A stretch of DNA of 64,000 bases from Elusimicrobia bacterium GWA2_62_23 (GTDB taxonomy: Bacteria; Elusimicrobiota; Elusimicrobia; Elusimicrobiales; UBA9959): contig MGTV01000008.1 in the NCBI GenBank assembly GCA_001799635.1, positions 126,879-190,878 on the forward strand, written 5' to 3'. Shown here piece by piece: positions 2,074 to 60,643 of the stretch. Both the position numbers and the translations under genes were made by a program. The notes under the pieces are model-generated. The model saw only the letters and a list, made by a program, of their open reading frames with translations. It ran no database searches and had not been told where the DNA came from. The stretch's first letter is position 1. The number at the start of each line of letters is the position of its first letter.

Positions 2074-3143
2074 TGAGATCCGACGCCAATATCCTCGTTA
2101 CCGGCGGAGCCGGCTTCATAGGCGCCAACTTTATACGCTACGTGCTGGCCCTCCCCGGTTTCAAGGGGCGCGTGATAAACCTGGATAAGCTTACCTACGC
2201 CGGCAACCTAAATAACCTCGACGGCCTCGGCTCCCGGCACGTGTTCGTGAAAGGCGACATCTGCGACTACAGGAAAGTGCTGGGGCTGCTGCGGCGTTAT
2301 AAGATCGCCTGCGTGGTCAATTTCGCGGCCGAAAGCCACGTGGACCGGTCCATACACGGGCCGGCTGAATTCGTGCGGTCGAATATCAACGGTACTTTCT
2401 CGCTGCTGGAAGCGGCGAGGGCCGCCTGGGCCGGGCGCAAGGACGTGCGCTTCCACCACGTCAGCACCGACGAGGTTTACGGGTCCCTGGGGAAGACCGG
2501 CAAGTTCAAGGAGACCACGCCTTACGACCCGCGCAGCCCGTATTCGGCTTCCAAGGCCTCTTCGGACCACCTGGTGATGGCGTACCACCACACCTACGGC
2601 CTACCGGTGACCATTTCCAACTGCTCCAACAATTACGGGCCCTATCATTTCCCGGAGAAGCTCATTCCGCTGGTAATCCTGAACGCCTTGGAAGGCAAGC
2701 CGCTGCCGGTTTACGGCGACGGCATGCAGGTGCGCGACTGGCTTTACGTAGTGGATCATTGCGCGGCTATCTGGCGCGTTATGAACAAGGGACGTACCGG
2801 GCAGACCTACAACGTGGGCGGCAACAGCGAGATGGCGAATATCGACGTGGTAAAGGGGATCTGCGCCGCGCTGGAGAAATTCCAGCCTTCCTGCTGCAAC
2901 GCCCTGCTTAAGGGGAAAAAGTACGCGGAGCTGATAACCTACGTGAAAGACCGCCCCGGCCACGACCGGCGCTACGCCATAGATTTTTCCAAGATACGCC
3001 GGGAACTTGGCTGGAAACCTTCAGTGACCTTTAAAGAGGGGCTGGAGAGCACGGTGGTGTGGTATCTGGGCAATTCCGCCTGGGTGCGCGACGTGAAGAC
3101 CGGCGCGTACCGCGGGTGGCTGAAGAAAAATTATTCCAGATGA
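2073..3143 (+). CDS. rfbB: dTDP-glucose 4,6-dehydratase
   Basis: NAD+-dependent extended SDR that converts dTDP-glucose to dTDP-4-keto-6-deoxyglucose. The ORF track starts it at 1827, inside rfbA. The ATG at 2073 overlaps the rfbA stop by one base and gives [20 protein letters not shown], the correct N-terminus with the Rossmann glycine motif, so 356 residues. The dehydratase signature is present: STDEVYG holds the Thr-Asp-Glu active-site trio and PYSASKAS holds the YxxxK pair. The stop overlaps the next gene's start (ATGA), implying coupled translation with the metallo-hydrolase downstream. Confidence 0.96.
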   Translation: MRSDANILVTGGAGFIGANFIRYVLALPGFKGRVINLDKLTYAGNLNNLDGLGSRHVFVKGDICDYRKVLGLLRRYKIACVVNFAAESHVDRSIHGPAEFVRSNINGTFSLLEAARAAWAGRKDVRFHHVSTDEVYGSLGKTGKFKETTPYDPRSPYSASKASSDHLVMAYHHTYGLPVTISNCSNNYGPYHFPEKLIPLVILNALEGKPLPVYGDGMQVRDWLYVVDHCAAIWRVMNKGRTGQTYNVGGNSEMANIDVVKGICAALEKFQPSCCNALLKGKKYAELITYVKDRPGHDRRYAIDFSKIRRELGWKPSVTFKEGLESTVVWYLGNSAWVRDVKTGAYRGWLKKNYSR

Positions 3144-3883
3144 AAGTAGTCTTCCTCGGAACCAACGGCTGGTACGATACCGGTACCGGCAATACGGTTT
3201 GTGCGCTCATCAAGACAGCGCGCTACGATATAGTGCTGGACGCCGGGTACGGCCTGCATAAACTCAATAAGTACTGCGACGGCAGCAAACCGGTTTTCAT
3301 CCTGCTCAGCCATTACCATATAGACCACATAGCCGGCCTGCATACGCTGGTGAAGTTCCGTTTTAAGAAAGGCCTTACCATCTGCGCCCAGAAAGGCGGG
3401 CGCAAGGTGCTTGATACTTTTGTGGGGCGCCCATTCACCGTGCCGCTTAAAAAACTCCCCTATCCCGTAAAAGTTCTGGAATTGCCGTCGGAGATAAAGA
3501 ATCTGCCGTTCAAGGTTAAAACGCTGCCGCTGGTGCACGCGGACCCCGTGCTGGGCTTCCGCCTGGAACTGGAGGGGAAAAGCGTAACCTATTGCACCGA
3601 CACCGGTTATTGCCCCAACGCCCTGGAACTGGCCCGCGGCGCGGACCTGCTTATAACCGAATGCGCCCACCTGCCCGGCGAGCACAACCCCGCCTGGCCG
3701 CACTTCAATCCCGAAACCGCGGCCAAACTCGCCCTGGAGGCCGGCGCCAAGCGCCTGGCCCTCACCCACTTCTCCGCGGAACGCTACCACAAACCCGCCC
3801 TGCGCGCCATGGCCCTGCGGCTGGCCCGCAGGACTTTTCCCCGGGTAACAGCCGCCCGTGACGGTTCTCAAGTCAAGGTCTGA
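3140..3883 (+). CDS. Metallo-beta-lactamase-fold hydrolase (RNase Z-like)
   Basis: A 247-residue protein of the MBL superfamily, nearest in style to RNase Z/ElaC-like phosphodiesterases. The zinc-binding motif is SHYHIDHIAG (HxHxDH, about residues 60-65). Further metal ligands are plausible in LVHADPV, YCTDTGY and the C-terminal LTHFS. The track start at 3059 lies inside rfbB; the ATG at 3140 overlaps the rfbB stop (ATGA) and starts at the family's usual MKVVFLGT. No tRNA or RNA substrate is indicated by the neighbours, and coupling to rfbB suggests co-regulation with sugar synthesis. Substrate unknown; it could be an RNase, a cyclic nucleotide phosphodiesterase or a small-molecule hydrolase. 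Confidence 0.85.
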   Translation: MKVVFLGTNGWYDTGTGNTVCALIKTARYDIVLDAGYGLHKLNKYCDGSKPVFILLSHYHIDHIAGLHTLVKFRFKKGLTICAQKGGRKVLDTFVGRPFTVPLKKLPYPVKVLELPSEIKNLPFKVKTLPLVHADPVLGFRLELEGKSVTYCTDTGYCPNALELARGADLLITECAHLPGEHNPAWPHFNPETAAKLALEAGAKRLALTHFSAERYHKPALRAMALRLARRTFPRVTAARDGSQVKV

Positions 3884-54835: not shown

Positions 54836-55609
54836 ATGATCGGCAAAAATATTCACGCGTTGCGTGAGACACTCGGGCTGAGCCAGGAAGAGCTCGGAGC
54901 CGCGGTAAAGCTTTCACGCCCTATAATTTCGCAGATAGAGTGCGGGACGCGCAAAGTTTCGGCGGAGGAACTGCCGGCTTTTTCGCGCGCTCTCAATGCT
55001 TCCGTGGGGCAGATACTTGGCACGGCGCCGCTGCCGGACGTTTCCGTGGCGGCGGAGCCGGCGGGCGCCTACGAGGCCGCGCCGCAGCTGCGCATAAGCG
55101 TGCCGCAGCGCAATATGGACAAGTTCCGGCAGGTGCTTCTGTACGTGCTAAATTCCGTGGGCGCCAAGCCGAACATCGGGGAGACAGTGCTGTACAAGCT
55201 CCTTTACTTTATGGACTTCAACTACTACGAGAAGTACGAGGAGCAGTTTATAGGAGCCACGTACATAAAGAACCACTATGGCCCTACGCCTGTGGAGTTC
55301 CGCAAACTTATAGGGCTTATGGAGAAGCGCGGGGAGTTGATAAAGGTGGACAATAAGTATTTCAGTTTTCCGCAGACCAAGTACCTGCCTTGCAAGGCGG
55401 CGGATATTTCCGCCTTGTCCGCCCGGGAAATAAAGGTGATAGACCAGGTGCTGGGCAAGCTTTCCGATATGAACGCCGCGCAGATAAGCGACTATTCCCA
55501 CAAAGATGTGCCGTGGATGACGGCCGCGGAGGGGGAGAAGATGGATTACGAAGCGGTGTTCTACCGTACTTCGGAGTACTCGGTGCGGGAATATGGTGAC
55601 GATATTTAG
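54836..55609 (+). CDS. Panacea-domain antitoxin with N-terminal helix-turn-helix
   Basis: 257 residues in two domains. Residues 1-60 form an XRE-type HTH (NIHALRETLGLSQEELGAAVKLSRPIISQIE). Residues about 95-240 form a Panacea (DUF4065/SocA-like) domain, with LYKLLYFMDFNYYEKYEEQFIGATYIKNHYGPTP as its core. Panacea proteins are antitoxins that pair with many unrelated toxins. The HTH suggests it represses its own strong promoter. It overlaps the downstream RelE-like gene by 17 bp. Confidence 0.88.
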   Translation: MIGKNIHALRETLGLSQEELGAAVKLSRPIISQIECGTRKVSAEELPAFSRALNASVGQILGTAPLPDVSVAAEPAGAYEAAPQLRISVPQRNMDKFRQVLLYVLNSVGAKPNIGETVLYKLLYFMDFNYYEKYEEQFIGATYIKNHYGPTPVEFRKLIGLMEKRGELIKVDNKYFSFPQTKYLPCKAADISALSAREIKVIDQVLGKLSDMNAAQISDYSHKDVPWMTAAEGEKMDYEAVFYRTSEYSVREYGDDI

Positions 55610-55970
55610 GAGTGTGGTCCGCCGCGAGGAGTTTGGCCGGGACTTGAAGAAACTGCTCCGGAGGTTCCGTACGCTTGAAGAAGACCTGGCTACACTTGTG
55701 CGGACGCAGCTTAATATCTACCATAAGCTGCATGTGGATAACGGCGGCATCTTTCGCCTGACGGGGCTCCCGTTCGAAGTCCCGCAGGTCTTCAAGGTCA
55801 AGAAATTCGCGTGCAAGGCGCTTAAGGGGCGCGGGGTAAAGTCCGGCATCCGCGTTATTTACGCATATTACCCGGAGACGGACGCCGTAGAACTGGTGGA
55901 GATATATTTCAAGGCCGACCAGGTTAACGAGGACCGCCAGCGCTTGTGCAGCATCTATTCCACACATTGA
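55593..55970 (+). CDS. RelE/ParE-like putative toxin
   Basis: A 125-residue basic protein. Its layout fits the RelE/ParE fold: two N-terminal helices (REEFGRDLKKLLRRFRTLEEDLATLV) followed by strands VFKVKKFACKAL, GIRVIYAYYPETD and VELVEIYFKAD. Residues on the late strands (Arg, Lys, Tyr) could form a RelE-like mRNA-cutting site, but I cannot align them with certainty. It starts inside the Panacea gene's end, the coupling expected of a toxin-antitoxin pair. Fold assignment moderate; toxicity inferred from context. Confidence 0.72.
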   Translation: MVTIFRSVVRREEFGRDLKKLLRRFRTLEEDLATLVRTQLNIYHKLHVDNGGIFRLTGLPFEVPQVFKVKKFACKALKGRGVKSGIRVIYAYYPETDAVELVEIYFKADQVNEDRQRLCSIYSTH

Positions 55971-57513: not shown

Positions 57514-57521
57514 AGAGGGGA

Positions 57522-57552
57522 GCCCCGCCCGCAAGGCGGGGTTCCGCTTTTT
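57522..57552 (+). terminator. Intrinsic terminator of ugd (repeat copy 1)
   Basis: CCCCGCC-CGCAA-GGCGGGG then TTCCGCTTTTT. Same stem, loop and tail occur at 59126 and 60615, so this is a three-copy terminator-like repeat, each after a gene of the island. Confidence 0.78.
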
Positions 57553-57689
57553 ATGTCGACACTACGCTGGCCGCCTGTTGCGCATAGCGCTTGATGCGGC
57601 AGGGCCAATGGCCACTCGGGGGCGCCTGCTATGCTATTGCAGGTTGGGAAGGCTTTTGAGGGGGGATACAGGGGATGTGTAAATAAGTC

Positions 57690-57718
57690 TTGAAATTTAG
57701 TTAAAACTAAATTATAAT
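57690..57718 (+). promoter_or_regulatory. AbiE promoter with palindromic operator in the spacer
   Basis: TTGAAA (57690-57695), 17-base spacer, TATAAT (57713-57718). The spacer is a palindrome, AATTTAGTT-AA-AACTAAATT (57694-57713), so a bound repressor would cover both promoter elements. The expected transcript start is about 57725, the A of the ATG, and no ribosome-binding site exists, so the mRNA is probably leaderless. Confidence 0.8.
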
Positions 57719-57724
57719 ACATAT

Positions 57725-58498
57725 ATGTACTCACAGCTTCAATTGCGGGAGATCTTTCATCTTGAATTCCTGCGCTACCTGGCGGCGGATATGCCGCCGC
57801 GGTTCTGGGCGCTCAAGGGGGGAGTGAACCTGCGGCTTTTCTTTAAGAGCGTCCGGTATTCCGAGGACATGGATATTGACGTTGAAGGGCTGCCGGTGGC
57901 GTCCCTGCAGAAGCGCGTGCTGCGTATCCTCAATTCCCCTTCTTTCCGGGAGAACCTGCGGACCTACGGCATAACCGGCGTTACGCCCCCGGACATGGCC
58001 GCGGCCAAGCAGACGGCCGTTACGCAGCGCTTCAAAGTGCACATTCTTACGGAGGGGGGAGGGGATTATTTTACCAAGGTGGAGTTCTCGCGCCGGGGCT
58101 TTTCCGGGGAGCCGGCGGCGGAAAGCATCCCCGCGGCCGTGCTGCGGCCTTACGCCATGGCGCCGCTGATAGTGCGGCATTATCCGGCGGGTCTCGCCGC
58201 CGCGCAGAAGATAGGGGCGGTGCTGTCTCGCTCCGTGCTGCAGGCGCGGGATATTTTCGACCTGTACCTGCTCTCTTCGCAGGTGAGCCCGGGGCAGATC
58301 ACGCTGCCCTTGCCTGAAGGGGAAATGGCCCGGGTCAAGGAGAGTGTGCTGGAGCCGGGGTTCGAACTGTTCCGGGACGCGGTGGCCGCGTACCTGGCTC
58401 CGGGAGACAGGGAGATGTACTTGGCCCCGGAAGCCTGGGACGAGGTGAAATTGAAAGCGGCCGCCTTTGTGGAGGAACTCTATGCGGCGAACAGGTGA
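57725..58498 (+). CDS. AbiEii/AbiGii-family nucleotidyltransferase toxin
   Basis: 257 residues. FWALKGGVNLRLFFKSVRYSEDMDIDVEG holds the family's KGG-NLRL helix and SxDxDID catalytic acidic motif; later ILTEGGGDYFTKVEFSRR and QARDIFDLYLL are typical. AbiEii toxins transfer nucleotides and arrest growth or abort phage infection. In classical AbiE loci the antitoxin gene comes first; here the toxin does. It appears to be translated from a leaderless mRNA. The antitoxin gene overlaps its last 17 bp. Confidence 0.85.
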   Translation: MYSQLQLREIFHLEFLRYLAADMPPRFWALKGGVNLRLFFKSVRYSEDMDIDVEGLPVASLQKRVLRILNSPSFRENLRTYGITGVTPPDMAAAKQTAVTQRFKVHILTEGGGDYFTKVEFSRRGFSGEPAAESIPAAVLRPYAMAPLIVRHYPAGLAAAQKIGAVLSRSVLQARDIFDLYLLSSQVSPGQITLPLPEGEMARVKESVLEPGFELFRDAVAAYLAPGDREMYLAPEAWDEVKLKAAAFVEELYAANR

Positions 58499-59102
58499 GA
58501 AAAGTCTTGCCGGCCATGTGGCGGCCTTAGGCCGCAGGGTCTTTACCTCAGCGGAGCTGGGGGCGGTTTCGTTGCGTTCCGGCTCGGTGGTTTCGCAGGG
58601 GCTGGCGGTAATGCAGCGGCAGGGGCTGGCGCTGCGGCTGGGGCACGGCCTCTGGTCGGCCGGGGCGGAGCCGCCCGGGCAGTACGAGGTTGTGCCGCAC
58701 CTGCTGCCCAAACAACGCGTTTATGTGTCCTTTACCAGCGCGCTGCACCTGCACGGGGTTATAGAGCAGATACCGCAGGTGATAACGCTGGCTTCCACGG
58801 CGCATACCCGGCTGCTGGCCACGCGCGCGGGCAGCTTTGCCCTGCATCACCTGGCGCCGGAGATGTTCTGCGGTTTTGACTGGGATGCCAGGCGCGGTTT
58901 TGCCCTGGCTTCCCCGGAAAAGGCGCTGGTGGACTGCCTGTATGTATCGGCTTTCCGCAAAAGGCAGTTCTCGCACTTCCCGGAGCTGGACCTTGAGAGG
59001 CTGGAACTTAAAAAGGCGCGGGCCTGGGCGGCGCGGATAAAGAACCCCATGGCCCGGGAGCACGTGCTTAAGCGGCTGGCGGGGCTATTTAAGTATAAGT
59101 AA
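58482..59102 (+). CDS. AbiEi-family antitoxin/transcriptional regulator
   Basis: 206 residues. An N-terminal winged helix (RRVFTSAELGAVSLRSGSVVSQGLAVMQRQGLALRLGHGLW) is followed by the AbiEi C-terminal region (YVSFTSALHLHGVIEQIPQVITLAS, RGFALASPEKALVDCLY). AbiEi proteins neutralise AbiEii and bind inverted repeats at their own promoter; the palindrome at 57694 is a likely target. The ATG at 58482, after GGAGGAA, is preferred to the track start 58467. A terminator repeat follows. Confidence 0.85.
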   Translation: MRRTGEKSLAGHVAALGRRVFTSAELGAVSLRSGSVVSQGLAVMQRQGLALRLGHGLWSAGAEPPGQYEVVPHLLPKQRVYVSFTSALHLHGVIEQIPQVITLASTAHTRLLATRAGSFALHHLAPEMFCGFDWDARRGFALASPEKALVDCLYVSAFRKRQFSHFPELDLERLELKKARAWAARIKNPMAREHVLKRLAGLFKYK

Positions 59103-59125
59103 AGGGTTCGCGCATTCGCTGGTTG

Positions 59126-59155
59126 GCCCCGCCCGCAAGGCGGGGTTCTGCTTTT
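59126..59155 (+). terminator. Intrinsic terminator of the AbiE pair (repeat copy 2)
   Basis: CCCCGCC-CGCAA-GGCGGGG with tail TTCTGCTTTT, 24 bp after the AbiEi stop. Same element as at 57522 and 60615, with one base change in the tail. Confidence 0.75.
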
Positions 59156-59165
59156 ATGGGGGGGC

Positions 59166-59194
59166 TTGAAATTCAGGGTTTTGCCTGCTATACT
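59166..59194 (+). promoter_or_regulatory. Sigma70 promoter of the XRE/nucleotidyltransferase pair
   Basis: TTGAAA (59166-59171), 17-base spacer, TATACT (59189-59194). It runs straight into the double palindrome that follows, so repression by a bound dimer is expected. Confidence 0.8.
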
Positions 59195-59229
59195 ATCGGT
59201 ATAGCGATATGATTATCGGTATACCGATA
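59194..59229. promoter_or_regulatory. Twin palindromic operator overlapping the start codon
   Basis: Two 16-bp palindromes, TATCGGTATAGCGATA (59194-59209, one mismatch) and TATCGGTATACCGATA (59214-59229, perfect), have centres 20 bp apart, i.e. two helical turns. They span from the -10 to the start codon of the HTH gene. The arrangement fits cooperative binding of two repressor dimers, most likely the HTH product itself. Confidence 0.85.
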
Positions 59230-59993
59230 TGAAAAAAGATATGGAAAAAATTAGAGCGGCAATAGCCTCAAAGGTGCGGGACTTGCGCCTGGGCCGACGT
59301 TGGAGCCAGGTCCGCCTGGCCGCCTTACTGGGGATCTCGCAGAACCGCCTGTCGGAGATAGAGCGGGGAGACGGGTCTTTTACCGCCGAACAATTGGTGC
59401 TGGTCATTAGCACGTTCAACCTGCAGTTGGATTATTTTTCGGTTTCGCGCCAGAAAGCGGGGGCGGAACTGCAGAATACCCTTGCGCGTTTAGGGGCCGG
59501 GCATCTCCGGGAAGACTCTTCCCTGGGCGCTTTTGAAAGTTCAAAACGGGTGGACGAGGTAATACTGGAGGCGCTGATAGCCGCGGATTCTCCTCGCCAG
59601 GTGGCGGCCGTGGCGCCCGTGCTGGTGGCCCAGATAGAGCGGGTTAATTTAGGGCGGCTCCGGCTTAAAGCCGCCGAGGCCGGGTATGAGGCGCGCCTTG
59701 GGTGGGCTTTGGAGAATGTGCTTGGGGCTATACGGGCGGAGCTGCCGCGTGTCGGTCAAGCCTGGCGGCTTAAGTGCCGCAGGGCGGAACTCCTAATCGG
59801 GGCGGCGCTGGCCGCCTGGCCGGCCCCGAAGCCGGGGGCTGAGGACATCCTCGACCGGGAAATACTTAGCGAGGAGGGGGCGGCTGAAGCGCGCGCGGCG
59901 CGCTCCGCGGTAGCCCGCAAATGGGGGATAGTCACGCGCATCACCGCCGAAGATTTTAATGAAGCCCTGAGGGACGGCCGTGGAGATAATTAA
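59229..59993 (+). CDS. XRE-family regulator, probable antitoxin
   Basis: 254 residues. Residues about 12-68 form an HTH_3 domain (KVRDLRLGRRWSQVRLAALLGISQNRLSEIERGD). The rest (about 90-254) is alanine-rich and helical with no known domain I can name. No ribosome-binding site precedes the ATG at 59229, because the operator occupies that place; an in-frame ATG at 59241 is an alternative. It overlaps the nucleotidyltransferase-like gene by 14 bp and almost certainly autoregulates via the twin palindromes. The antitoxin role is inferred from this coupling. Confidence 0.8.
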   Translation: MKKDMEKIRAAIASKVRDLRLGRRWSQVRLAALLGISQNRLSEIERGDGSFTAEQLVLVISTFNLQLDYFSVSRQKAGAELQNTLARLGAGHLREDSSLGAFESSKRVDEVILEALIAADSPRQVAAVAPVLVAQIERVNLGRLRLKAAEAGYEARLGWALENVLGAIRAELPRVGQAWRLKCRRAELLIGAALAAWPAPKPGAEDILDREILSEEGAAEARAARSAVARKWGIVTRITAEDFNEALRDGRGDN

Positions 59994-60567
59994 GGAGTTT
60001 TTTACCGAACTGGACAGGAGCTGGCGGTTAGCAGCCGCCGGCAAGGTCCAGTTGCGCGTTATCGGTTCGGCGGCGCTTATGCTGGGTACGGGGTATTCCC
60101 GCGGCACCAAAGACAGCGATATTCTCGAGACGGCGGATATAGCCGGGGAAGTACGGCGGGAACTTCTGGCTTTGGCAGGGCGCGACAGCGTGCTGGCCGT
60201 GAAATACCGGCTTTACCTGGATATAGTTAACCACGCCATCCCATTTCTGCCGCAAAGGCCGAACTTTAGGCAGGCGGGTTTGCCCCGTCTTAAAAACTTC
60301 GACGTGGTCGCGCTGGACGTGACGGATGTGGTTGTGAGCAAGCTCAAGCGGTTCAGCGCCAATGACGCGGCGGACATACGCGCCATGGCGGAGAGGGGGC
60401 TGCTCCAGCCTGCTGCGCTGGCGGCCCGGTTCCAGGCCGCCGTGGATGTGTTCTCCATGGACGCGCGGGCCGAGGACCTGCCCAAATATGTCAGGAACCT
60501 GCACAGCATCGAACGGGATTTTCTCGGGGTCCCGGCGTCCGATATCCGCCTCCCCGGCTGGCTATAG
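59980..60567 (+). CDS. Nucleotidyltransferase-like protein (DUF6036-like), probable toxin partner
   Basis: 195 residues starting with GTG inside the end of the HTH gene. LRVIGSAALMLGTGYSRGTKDSDILETADI resembles the GSAA...TxDxDI core of nucleotidyltransferase-like DUF6036 proteins, though SDI gives only one clear Asp of the usual pair. VALDVTDVVVSKLKRFSANDAADIRAMAERGLL is the helical C-terminal part typical of the group. Similar proteins pair with HTH proteins in toxin-antitoxin-like operons. Activity and toxicity are not shown by the sequence. Confidence 0.72.
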   Translation: MEIIKEFFTELDRSWRLAAAGKVQLRVIGSAALMLGTGYSRGTKDSDILETADIAGEVRRELLALAGRDSVLAVKYRLYLDIVNHAIPFLPQRPNFRQAGLPRLKNFDVVALDVTDVVVSKLKRFSANDAADIRAMAERGLLQPAALAARFQAAVDVFSMDARAEDLPKYVRNLHSIERDFLGVPASDIRLPGWL

Positions 60568-60614: not shown

Positions 60615-60643
60615 GCCCCGCCCGCAAGGCGGGGTTCCGCTTT
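60615..60643 (+). terminator. Intrinsic terminator of the XRE pair (repeat copy 3)
   Basis: CCCCGCC-CGCAA-GGCGGGG with tail TTCCGCTTT. The U-tract is short (three T), so termination may be weaker than at copy 1. Confidence 0.65.

Follow-up and report, generated by a model that had tools for sequence, protein, structure and literature searches.

The gene pair at positions 57725–59102 of the window, by which we mean the whole 64,000-nt stretch of DNA analyzed here, is, judged from its sequence, an AbiE-type toxin–antitoxin system in reversed, toxin-first gene order, located in an Elusimicrobiota genome of 2.98 Mb in 51 contigs. We consider it likely that the pair works as an accessory operon, in which AbiEi would repress its own promoter through an operator spanning that promoter, the toxin would be translated from a leaderless message, and the antitoxin would be produced from an internal Shine–Dalgarno sequence together with coupling to toxin translation. 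The features of the locus are collected in Table 1, and the comparison of promoters and operators among relatives yields concrete predictions about its control.

Table 1. Features of the toxin-first AbiE locus; positions are those of the window.
Feature	Position	Strand	Evidence
Predicted promoter-spanning operator dyad (half-sites 57685–57702 and 57705–57722, 2-bp center 57703–57704)	57685..57722	.	dyad symmetry in 23 aligned loci
−35 element, TTGAAA	57690..57695	+	sequence, promoter scan
Core palindrome, AATTTAGTT-AA-AACTAAATT	57694..57713	.	sequence
−10 element, TATAAT, 6 nt before the toxin ATG	57713..57718	+	sequence; position kept in close relatives
Toxin gene, AbiEii-type nucleotidyltransferase, 257 aa	57725..58498	+	PF08843, motifs, fold
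GGAGG, possible abiEi Shine–Dalgarno sequence located within the toxin gene, 6 nt ahead of the abiEi ATG	58471..58475	+	sequence
AbiEi antitoxin gene, 206 aa, N-terminal winged helix–turn–helix	58482..59102	+	PADLOC, AlphaFold, PDB match
Terminator-like hairpin after the operon	59125..59147	+	sequence

The toxin matched the Pfam profile PF08843 with 45.7 bits (E 1e-11), compared to a cut-off of 22.5 bits for this profile. It contains the GG, DxD, and RD motifs that characterize the DUF1814/AbiEii nucleotidyltransferases of AbiE systems, and its KGG..R, S-x-D-x-D-x-D, and RDxFD motifs show little or no variation among 23 relatives. The predicted structure of the toxin (pLDDT 93.3) had its best fold matches in the PDB to H. 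pylori JHP933 and to M. tuberculosis MenT3 and MenT4. The product of the second gene was matched by PADLOC as AbiEi (E 8e-19), and also by the NCBIfam model TAA_AbiEi with an E value of 1e-9, which lies under the curated cut-off of that model. A Pfam search with this AbiEi sequence alone returned no match; the AbiEi_4 family was matched by 15 of 22 relatives. The AlphaFold model of this protein (pLDDT 90.6) was most similar in the PDB to the S. agalactiae AbiEi (6y8q, E 3e-6), and it has the domain arrangement expected of an AbiEi partner, in which a winged helix–turn–helix at the N terminus is followed by a C-terminal antitoxicity domain. The two genes are bicistronic, with reading frames that overlap by 17 bp, as is also described for AbiE systems. 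It is quite improbable that the pair is left over from a system that has degenerated or been domesticated and lacks toxin activity. Two related genomes do carry broken toxin genes behind an intact promoter-operator (L107 and L108; the frame is lost in G235 and ends after 42 aa in G137), but both frames are intact here, and the catalytic motifs are preserved among the relatives as described above.

In the description of AbiE systems by Dy et al. (2014; PMC3985639) the antitoxin gene precedes the toxin gene, with the regulator ahead of the nucleotidyltransferase in each case, and the order observed here is the reverse of it, as the preliminary description of this DNA had correctly recognized. 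Because gene order is a descriptive rather than a defining property of AbiE, we filed the pair as a toxin-first variant, and not as a classical AbiE system. On the other hand, a discussion from 2024 states that such nucleotidyltransferases are typically encoded upstream of the regulators (PMC11375011), and the literature is therefore inconsistent on this point. A literature search for AbiEii with reverse gene order found no description of it. We searched 341 genomes of the phylum, 46 of which had a relative. The tblastn data showed the toxin followed by AbiEi on the same strand in 28 of 30 loci, while one of the other two stops at a contig end (L010), and the second has an overlapping 204-aa open reading frame lacking a tblastn match (L030). 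The same order was present in most of the further loci fetched, which extends it across about 40 Elusimicrobiota loci, and the order was reversed relative to classical AbiE in all relatives that could be assessed. The start of AbiEi overlaps or abuts the toxin stop codon in nearly all of these loci. Toxin-first order with a PADLOC AbiEi downstream was also found on plasmids of Miltoncostaea (Actinomycetota), and of Bosea and Acidiphilium (Alphaproteobacteria). These loci document a toxin-first branch in a toxin family that is widespread, linked to defence, and antitoxin-first in published descriptions. The same genome additionally has an AbiE pair in the classical order (contig C8, about 23.8–25.2 kb; L109:1774–2346 and 2339–3202), which is alike in belonging to the AbiEi and AbiEii families and in having overlapping genes (8 bp), but differs in that its antitoxin gene comes first, and in that its toxin and antitoxin belong to other subfamilies.

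The promoter TTGAAA-N17-TATAAT that had been proposed for the pair was confirmed at its coordinates (Table 1) with a score of 11 out of 12, while the next best candidate on the same strand between the upstream gene and the toxin ATG scored 7 out of 12. In this interval it is the only credible promoter predicted on its strand. An upstream promoter that would give the toxin message a leader was rejected on the basis of the low score of the best alternative and of a terminator-like hairpin at 57519–57545. An in-frame TAG is located at 57698–57700, inside the palindrome, and there is no other start codon between it and the ATG at 57725; the toxin start is therefore forced to this ATG, and the same forced start is present in most relatives. 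The A of the ATG coincides with the predicted +1 position, in agreement with the earlier suggestion that the start codon falls at the transcription start. No Shine–Dalgarno sequence of the toxin was seen upstream of the ATG at this locus, and the −10 element, at its 6-nt distance conserved in relatives, is placed for transcription to start at or near the start codon. In leaderless genes generally, too, the −10 box lies some 10 bp ahead of the start codon (PMC6918082; PMC3160421). On these data the message of the toxin is likely to start with the ATG itself, and the leaderless toxin proposed earlier holds as a prediction, one that is conserved in relatives.

The preliminary description also viewed the spacer as filled by a palindrome that would act as an operator. 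The palindrome proved to be real, and to be part of a conserved promoter-operator, but it is not confined to the spacer: the core slightly exceeds it, taking in two bases at the end of the −35 and one at the start of the −10, and the full dyad, with 18-bp half-sites, covers the whole promoter. When the 100-nt upstream region was shuffled, 0.2% of the resulting sequences contained a palindrome with 9-bp arms, and for the AT-rich 45 nt the figure was 1%. The exact 14-base core occurs only once in the 2.98-Mb genome. The alignment of 23 loci gave the family consensus ATGTnTTnnAATTTAGTT-N2-AACTAAATTnnAAnACAT. At positions 10–18 from the center 137 of 207 pairings were symmetric, compared to 72.7 (sd 6.3) in shuffled data; none of 2000 shuffles was as high, and slid pairings reached at most 95, with the qualification that the 23 loci are related, which overstates their independence. 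The asymmetry of half-site positions 10, 11, and 14 is explained by the fact that they are occupied by the −35 and −10 elements. The predicted operator thus extends over the −35, the spacer, and the −10, reaches the predicted start site, and ends 2 bp before the toxin ATG. Its TTTAGTTnnAACTAAA core ends 13–16 nt before the ATG in 22 of the 23 loci that share the core, whichever promoter layout they have. A role of the palindrome as an RNA hairpin was rejected, because the left arm, being upstream of the start site in leaderless loci, would stay untranscribed there.

By analogy to other AbiE systems, the protein that binds this promoter-operator is presumably AbiEi itself. That the palindrome is instead bound by a host regulator, or is a mere by-product of an AT-rich promoter, appears very unlikely to us, even though the stretch is AT-rich, 9-bp palindromes arise in shuffled sequences at the frequency given above, and the assignment of AbiEi to the half-sites draws on analogy. 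The core has no second copy in the genome and accompanies the gene pair in many families, the symmetry extends beyond the −35 and −10 elements (ATGT...ACAT), and the palindrome is kept where the promoter is elsewhere. Additionally, there is precedent for AbiEi binding to inverted repeats across its own promoter (PMC3985639; PMC7319586). In more distant toxin-first relatives (L026–L032, L093–L102) a different palindrome, AATTGAC-N6-GTCAATT, which overlaps the −35, is frequent, and several of these loci are again leaderless.

The distance from the −10 to the start codon was bimodal over 44 loci, with a gap of 5–8 nt in 22 of them, counted where the best-scoring promoter reached 9 or more out of 12, and a second group at 28–31 nt; a gap of 5–8 nt is expected in 1.5% of shuffled sequences. 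Among the 23 loci sharing the dyad the −10 ends 6–7 nt before the ATG in most, which defines the leaderless layout, while in one clade the promoter is located about 22 nt further upstream, and the message would have a leader. In this leadered group the −10 lies about where the leaderless group has its −35, and an AAGGA or AGGA Shine–Dalgarno sequence occurs in some members near the position of the leaderless TATAAT. A toxin Shine–Dalgarno sequence was present in none of 23 leaderless loci versus 6 of 15 leadered ones (Fisher p 0.002, a significance overstated by the relatedness of the rows); two of the leaderless labels, those of L018 and L026, rest on their second- or third-best promoter. In the tree of the toxins, the 8 leadered loci that have this operator group in a single clade (support 100/99), and four changes of layout are needed in all, compared to 12.1 for shuffled labels. 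Since the leadered and the leaderless natural variants share the operator, the value of a leaderless toxin start could be tested by promoter swap.

Promoters of the leaderless type are common in this genome. Across 445 kb of its sequence, 31 of 458 candidate ATGs were preceded by a −10-like box at a distance of 6 or 7 nt, compared to an average of 5.2 at the other adjacent gap pairs, and the peak at gaps 6 and 7 was sharp. Counts of the motif TATAAT-N6-ATG were above those of its reversed control in almost every genome of families f1–f15, and only weakly so in the other class of the phylum. Summed over hosts, the motif outnumbered its control by 472 to 119 for the nine family-f1 genomes with the leaderless pair, and by only 331 to 239 for the genomes of the leadered clade; in three hosts from the other class that have the leaderless layout, the counts were 126 to 145. 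This suggests that leaderless genes are frequent throughout the class Elusimicrobia and much rarer in the other one. A 2011 survey of bacterial leaderless genes (PMC3160421) does not have this phylum among its positives, and a search of the literature found none that directly links leaderless genes with Elusimicrobiota; the counts are a pointer to such genes in a little-studied phylum. The idea that leaderless translation would be an unusual way to control a toxin was not borne out, because a −10 box 6–7 nt before the ATG is common in the genome and the class, and because in M. tuberculosis leaderless messages were reported for 32 of the 37 toxin–antitoxin pairs with a primary start site (Cortes et al. 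2013; PMC3898074).

With these counts in view, the chances are about even that the leaderless start of this same pair has no regulatory meaning and is the routine promoter layout of the class, with all control being transcriptional and exerted via the operator. In favor of this explanation are the enrichment in this genome, the enrichment in the leaderless f1 hosts, which is stronger than in the hosts of the leadered clade, and the spacing between the operator and the ATG, which is kept in both layouts and suggests that selection acts on the operator. It does not account for the three other-class hosts, which are leaderless while showing no genome-wide enrichment, nor for the conservation of the leaderless layout over deep divergence (about 50% identity). 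The habit of the host lineage as the sole reason for the leaderless layout was rejected, since it fails in these three hosts.

The autorepressed, leaderless operon that we prefer could operate as follows. By analogy to known systems, AbiEi would occupy the two inverted half-sites, which cover the promoter from the −35 to the start site, and would thereby repress its own transcription. When repression is lifted, RNA polymerase would start at the toxin ATG or one base before it, as predicted from the promoter position, producing a leaderless mRNA from which the toxin may be translated by leaderless initiation independently of a Shine–Dalgarno sequence. Translation of AbiEi would begin at the overlapping internal start, with help from the GGAGG in front of it and from coupling to the translation of the toxin, and this combination might keep the antitoxin at a level at least equal to that of the toxin. 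The GGAGG is retained in a few close relatives only, and a conserved abiEi Shine–Dalgarno sequence as a family-wide rule was rejected for this reason; an internal promoter for abiEi within the toxin gene was also rejected, as its best match scored 7 out of 12. The toxin would probably act on tRNA, as do the MenT toxins, and a role in phage defence may likewise be expected from what is known about the family (PMC7725324; PMC11375011). A further proposal, which we put forward as speculative and rather doubtful, is that the toxin-first branch keeps its operator at a near-constant distance from the ATG with the promoter in either of two places, and that in the leaderless form the toxin would be made by leaderless initiation only and the antitoxin with a Shine–Dalgarno sequence, so that the ribosome pool (70S or IF2-rich) would set the toxin:antitoxin ratio.

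The closest comparison is to the type IV AbiE system of S. agalactiae (PMC3985639; 6y8q), which is alike in its DUF1814 nucleotidyltransferase, in a winged helix–turn–helix AbiEi of the same fold, in its overlapping bicistronic operon, and in having two inverted half-sites over the promoter. The sequence identity is low, however, and the gene order differs, with the toxin first here. The half-sites here are 18 bp with a 2-bp gap, while the S. agalactiae operator consists of two 23-bp inverted repeats placed 3 bp apart over the promoter (PMC3985639; PMC7319586). The first gene also differs, as here it is a toxin gene predicted to be leaderless, and there an antitoxin gene with a ribosome binding site. 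The M. tuberculosis pairs MenAT3 and MenAT4 (Rv1044–Rv1045 and Rv2827c–Rv2826c; PMC7319586, PMC11375011) are similar in toxin fold, and leaderless toxin–antitoxin mRNAs are common in that species (PMC3898074). In contrast to the pair described here, the antitoxin gene is first in both, the Rv2827c promoter has four repeats, and Rv1044 did not bind its own promoter. The toxin-first type II system mqsRA also has its toxin gene ahead of the antitoxin (PMC6918082; PMC3160421), but it consists of unrelated protein families, and mqsA has its own promoters inside the operon, while none was seen in the toxin gene here.

The AbiE pair adjoins a pair of HTH and DUF6036 genes, and the outer neighbors on both sides are what we take, from reading their sequences, to be a UDP-sugar dehydrogenase-like gene and a glyceraldehyde-3-phosphate dehydrogenase gene. 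In four sister genomes these outer genes are only 115–262 nt apart with nothing between them, as expected of an empty insertion site, while in one genome (G141) the HTH/DUF6036 pair adjoins the same dehydrogenase gene. The 21-bp terminator-like core CCCCGCCCGCAAGGCGGGGTT is identical at 57523–57543, 59127–59147, and 60616–60636; these are its only three perfect copies in the genome, and they flank the AbiE pair and the HTH/DUF6036 pair. The empty site in the sisters, the separate occurrence of the HTH/DUF6036 pair beside the dehydrogenase gene, and the repeated terminator-like cores all indicate that the AbiE module, as judged by these genome comparisons, is accessory. The adjoining region (59166–60567) resembles a toxin–antitoxin system itself, with an HTH_3 regulator (59229) and an overlapping DUF6036 nucleotidyltransferase (59980), and it has tandem palindromes, ATCGGTATAGCGAT (59195–59208) and ATCGGTATACCGAT (59215–59228), between its −10 and its ATG. 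Elsewhere in the window, at 54836–55970, an HTH protein with a SocA/Panacea domain is followed by an overlapping 125-aa open reading frame with no family matches; this is likely another toxin–antitoxin pair.
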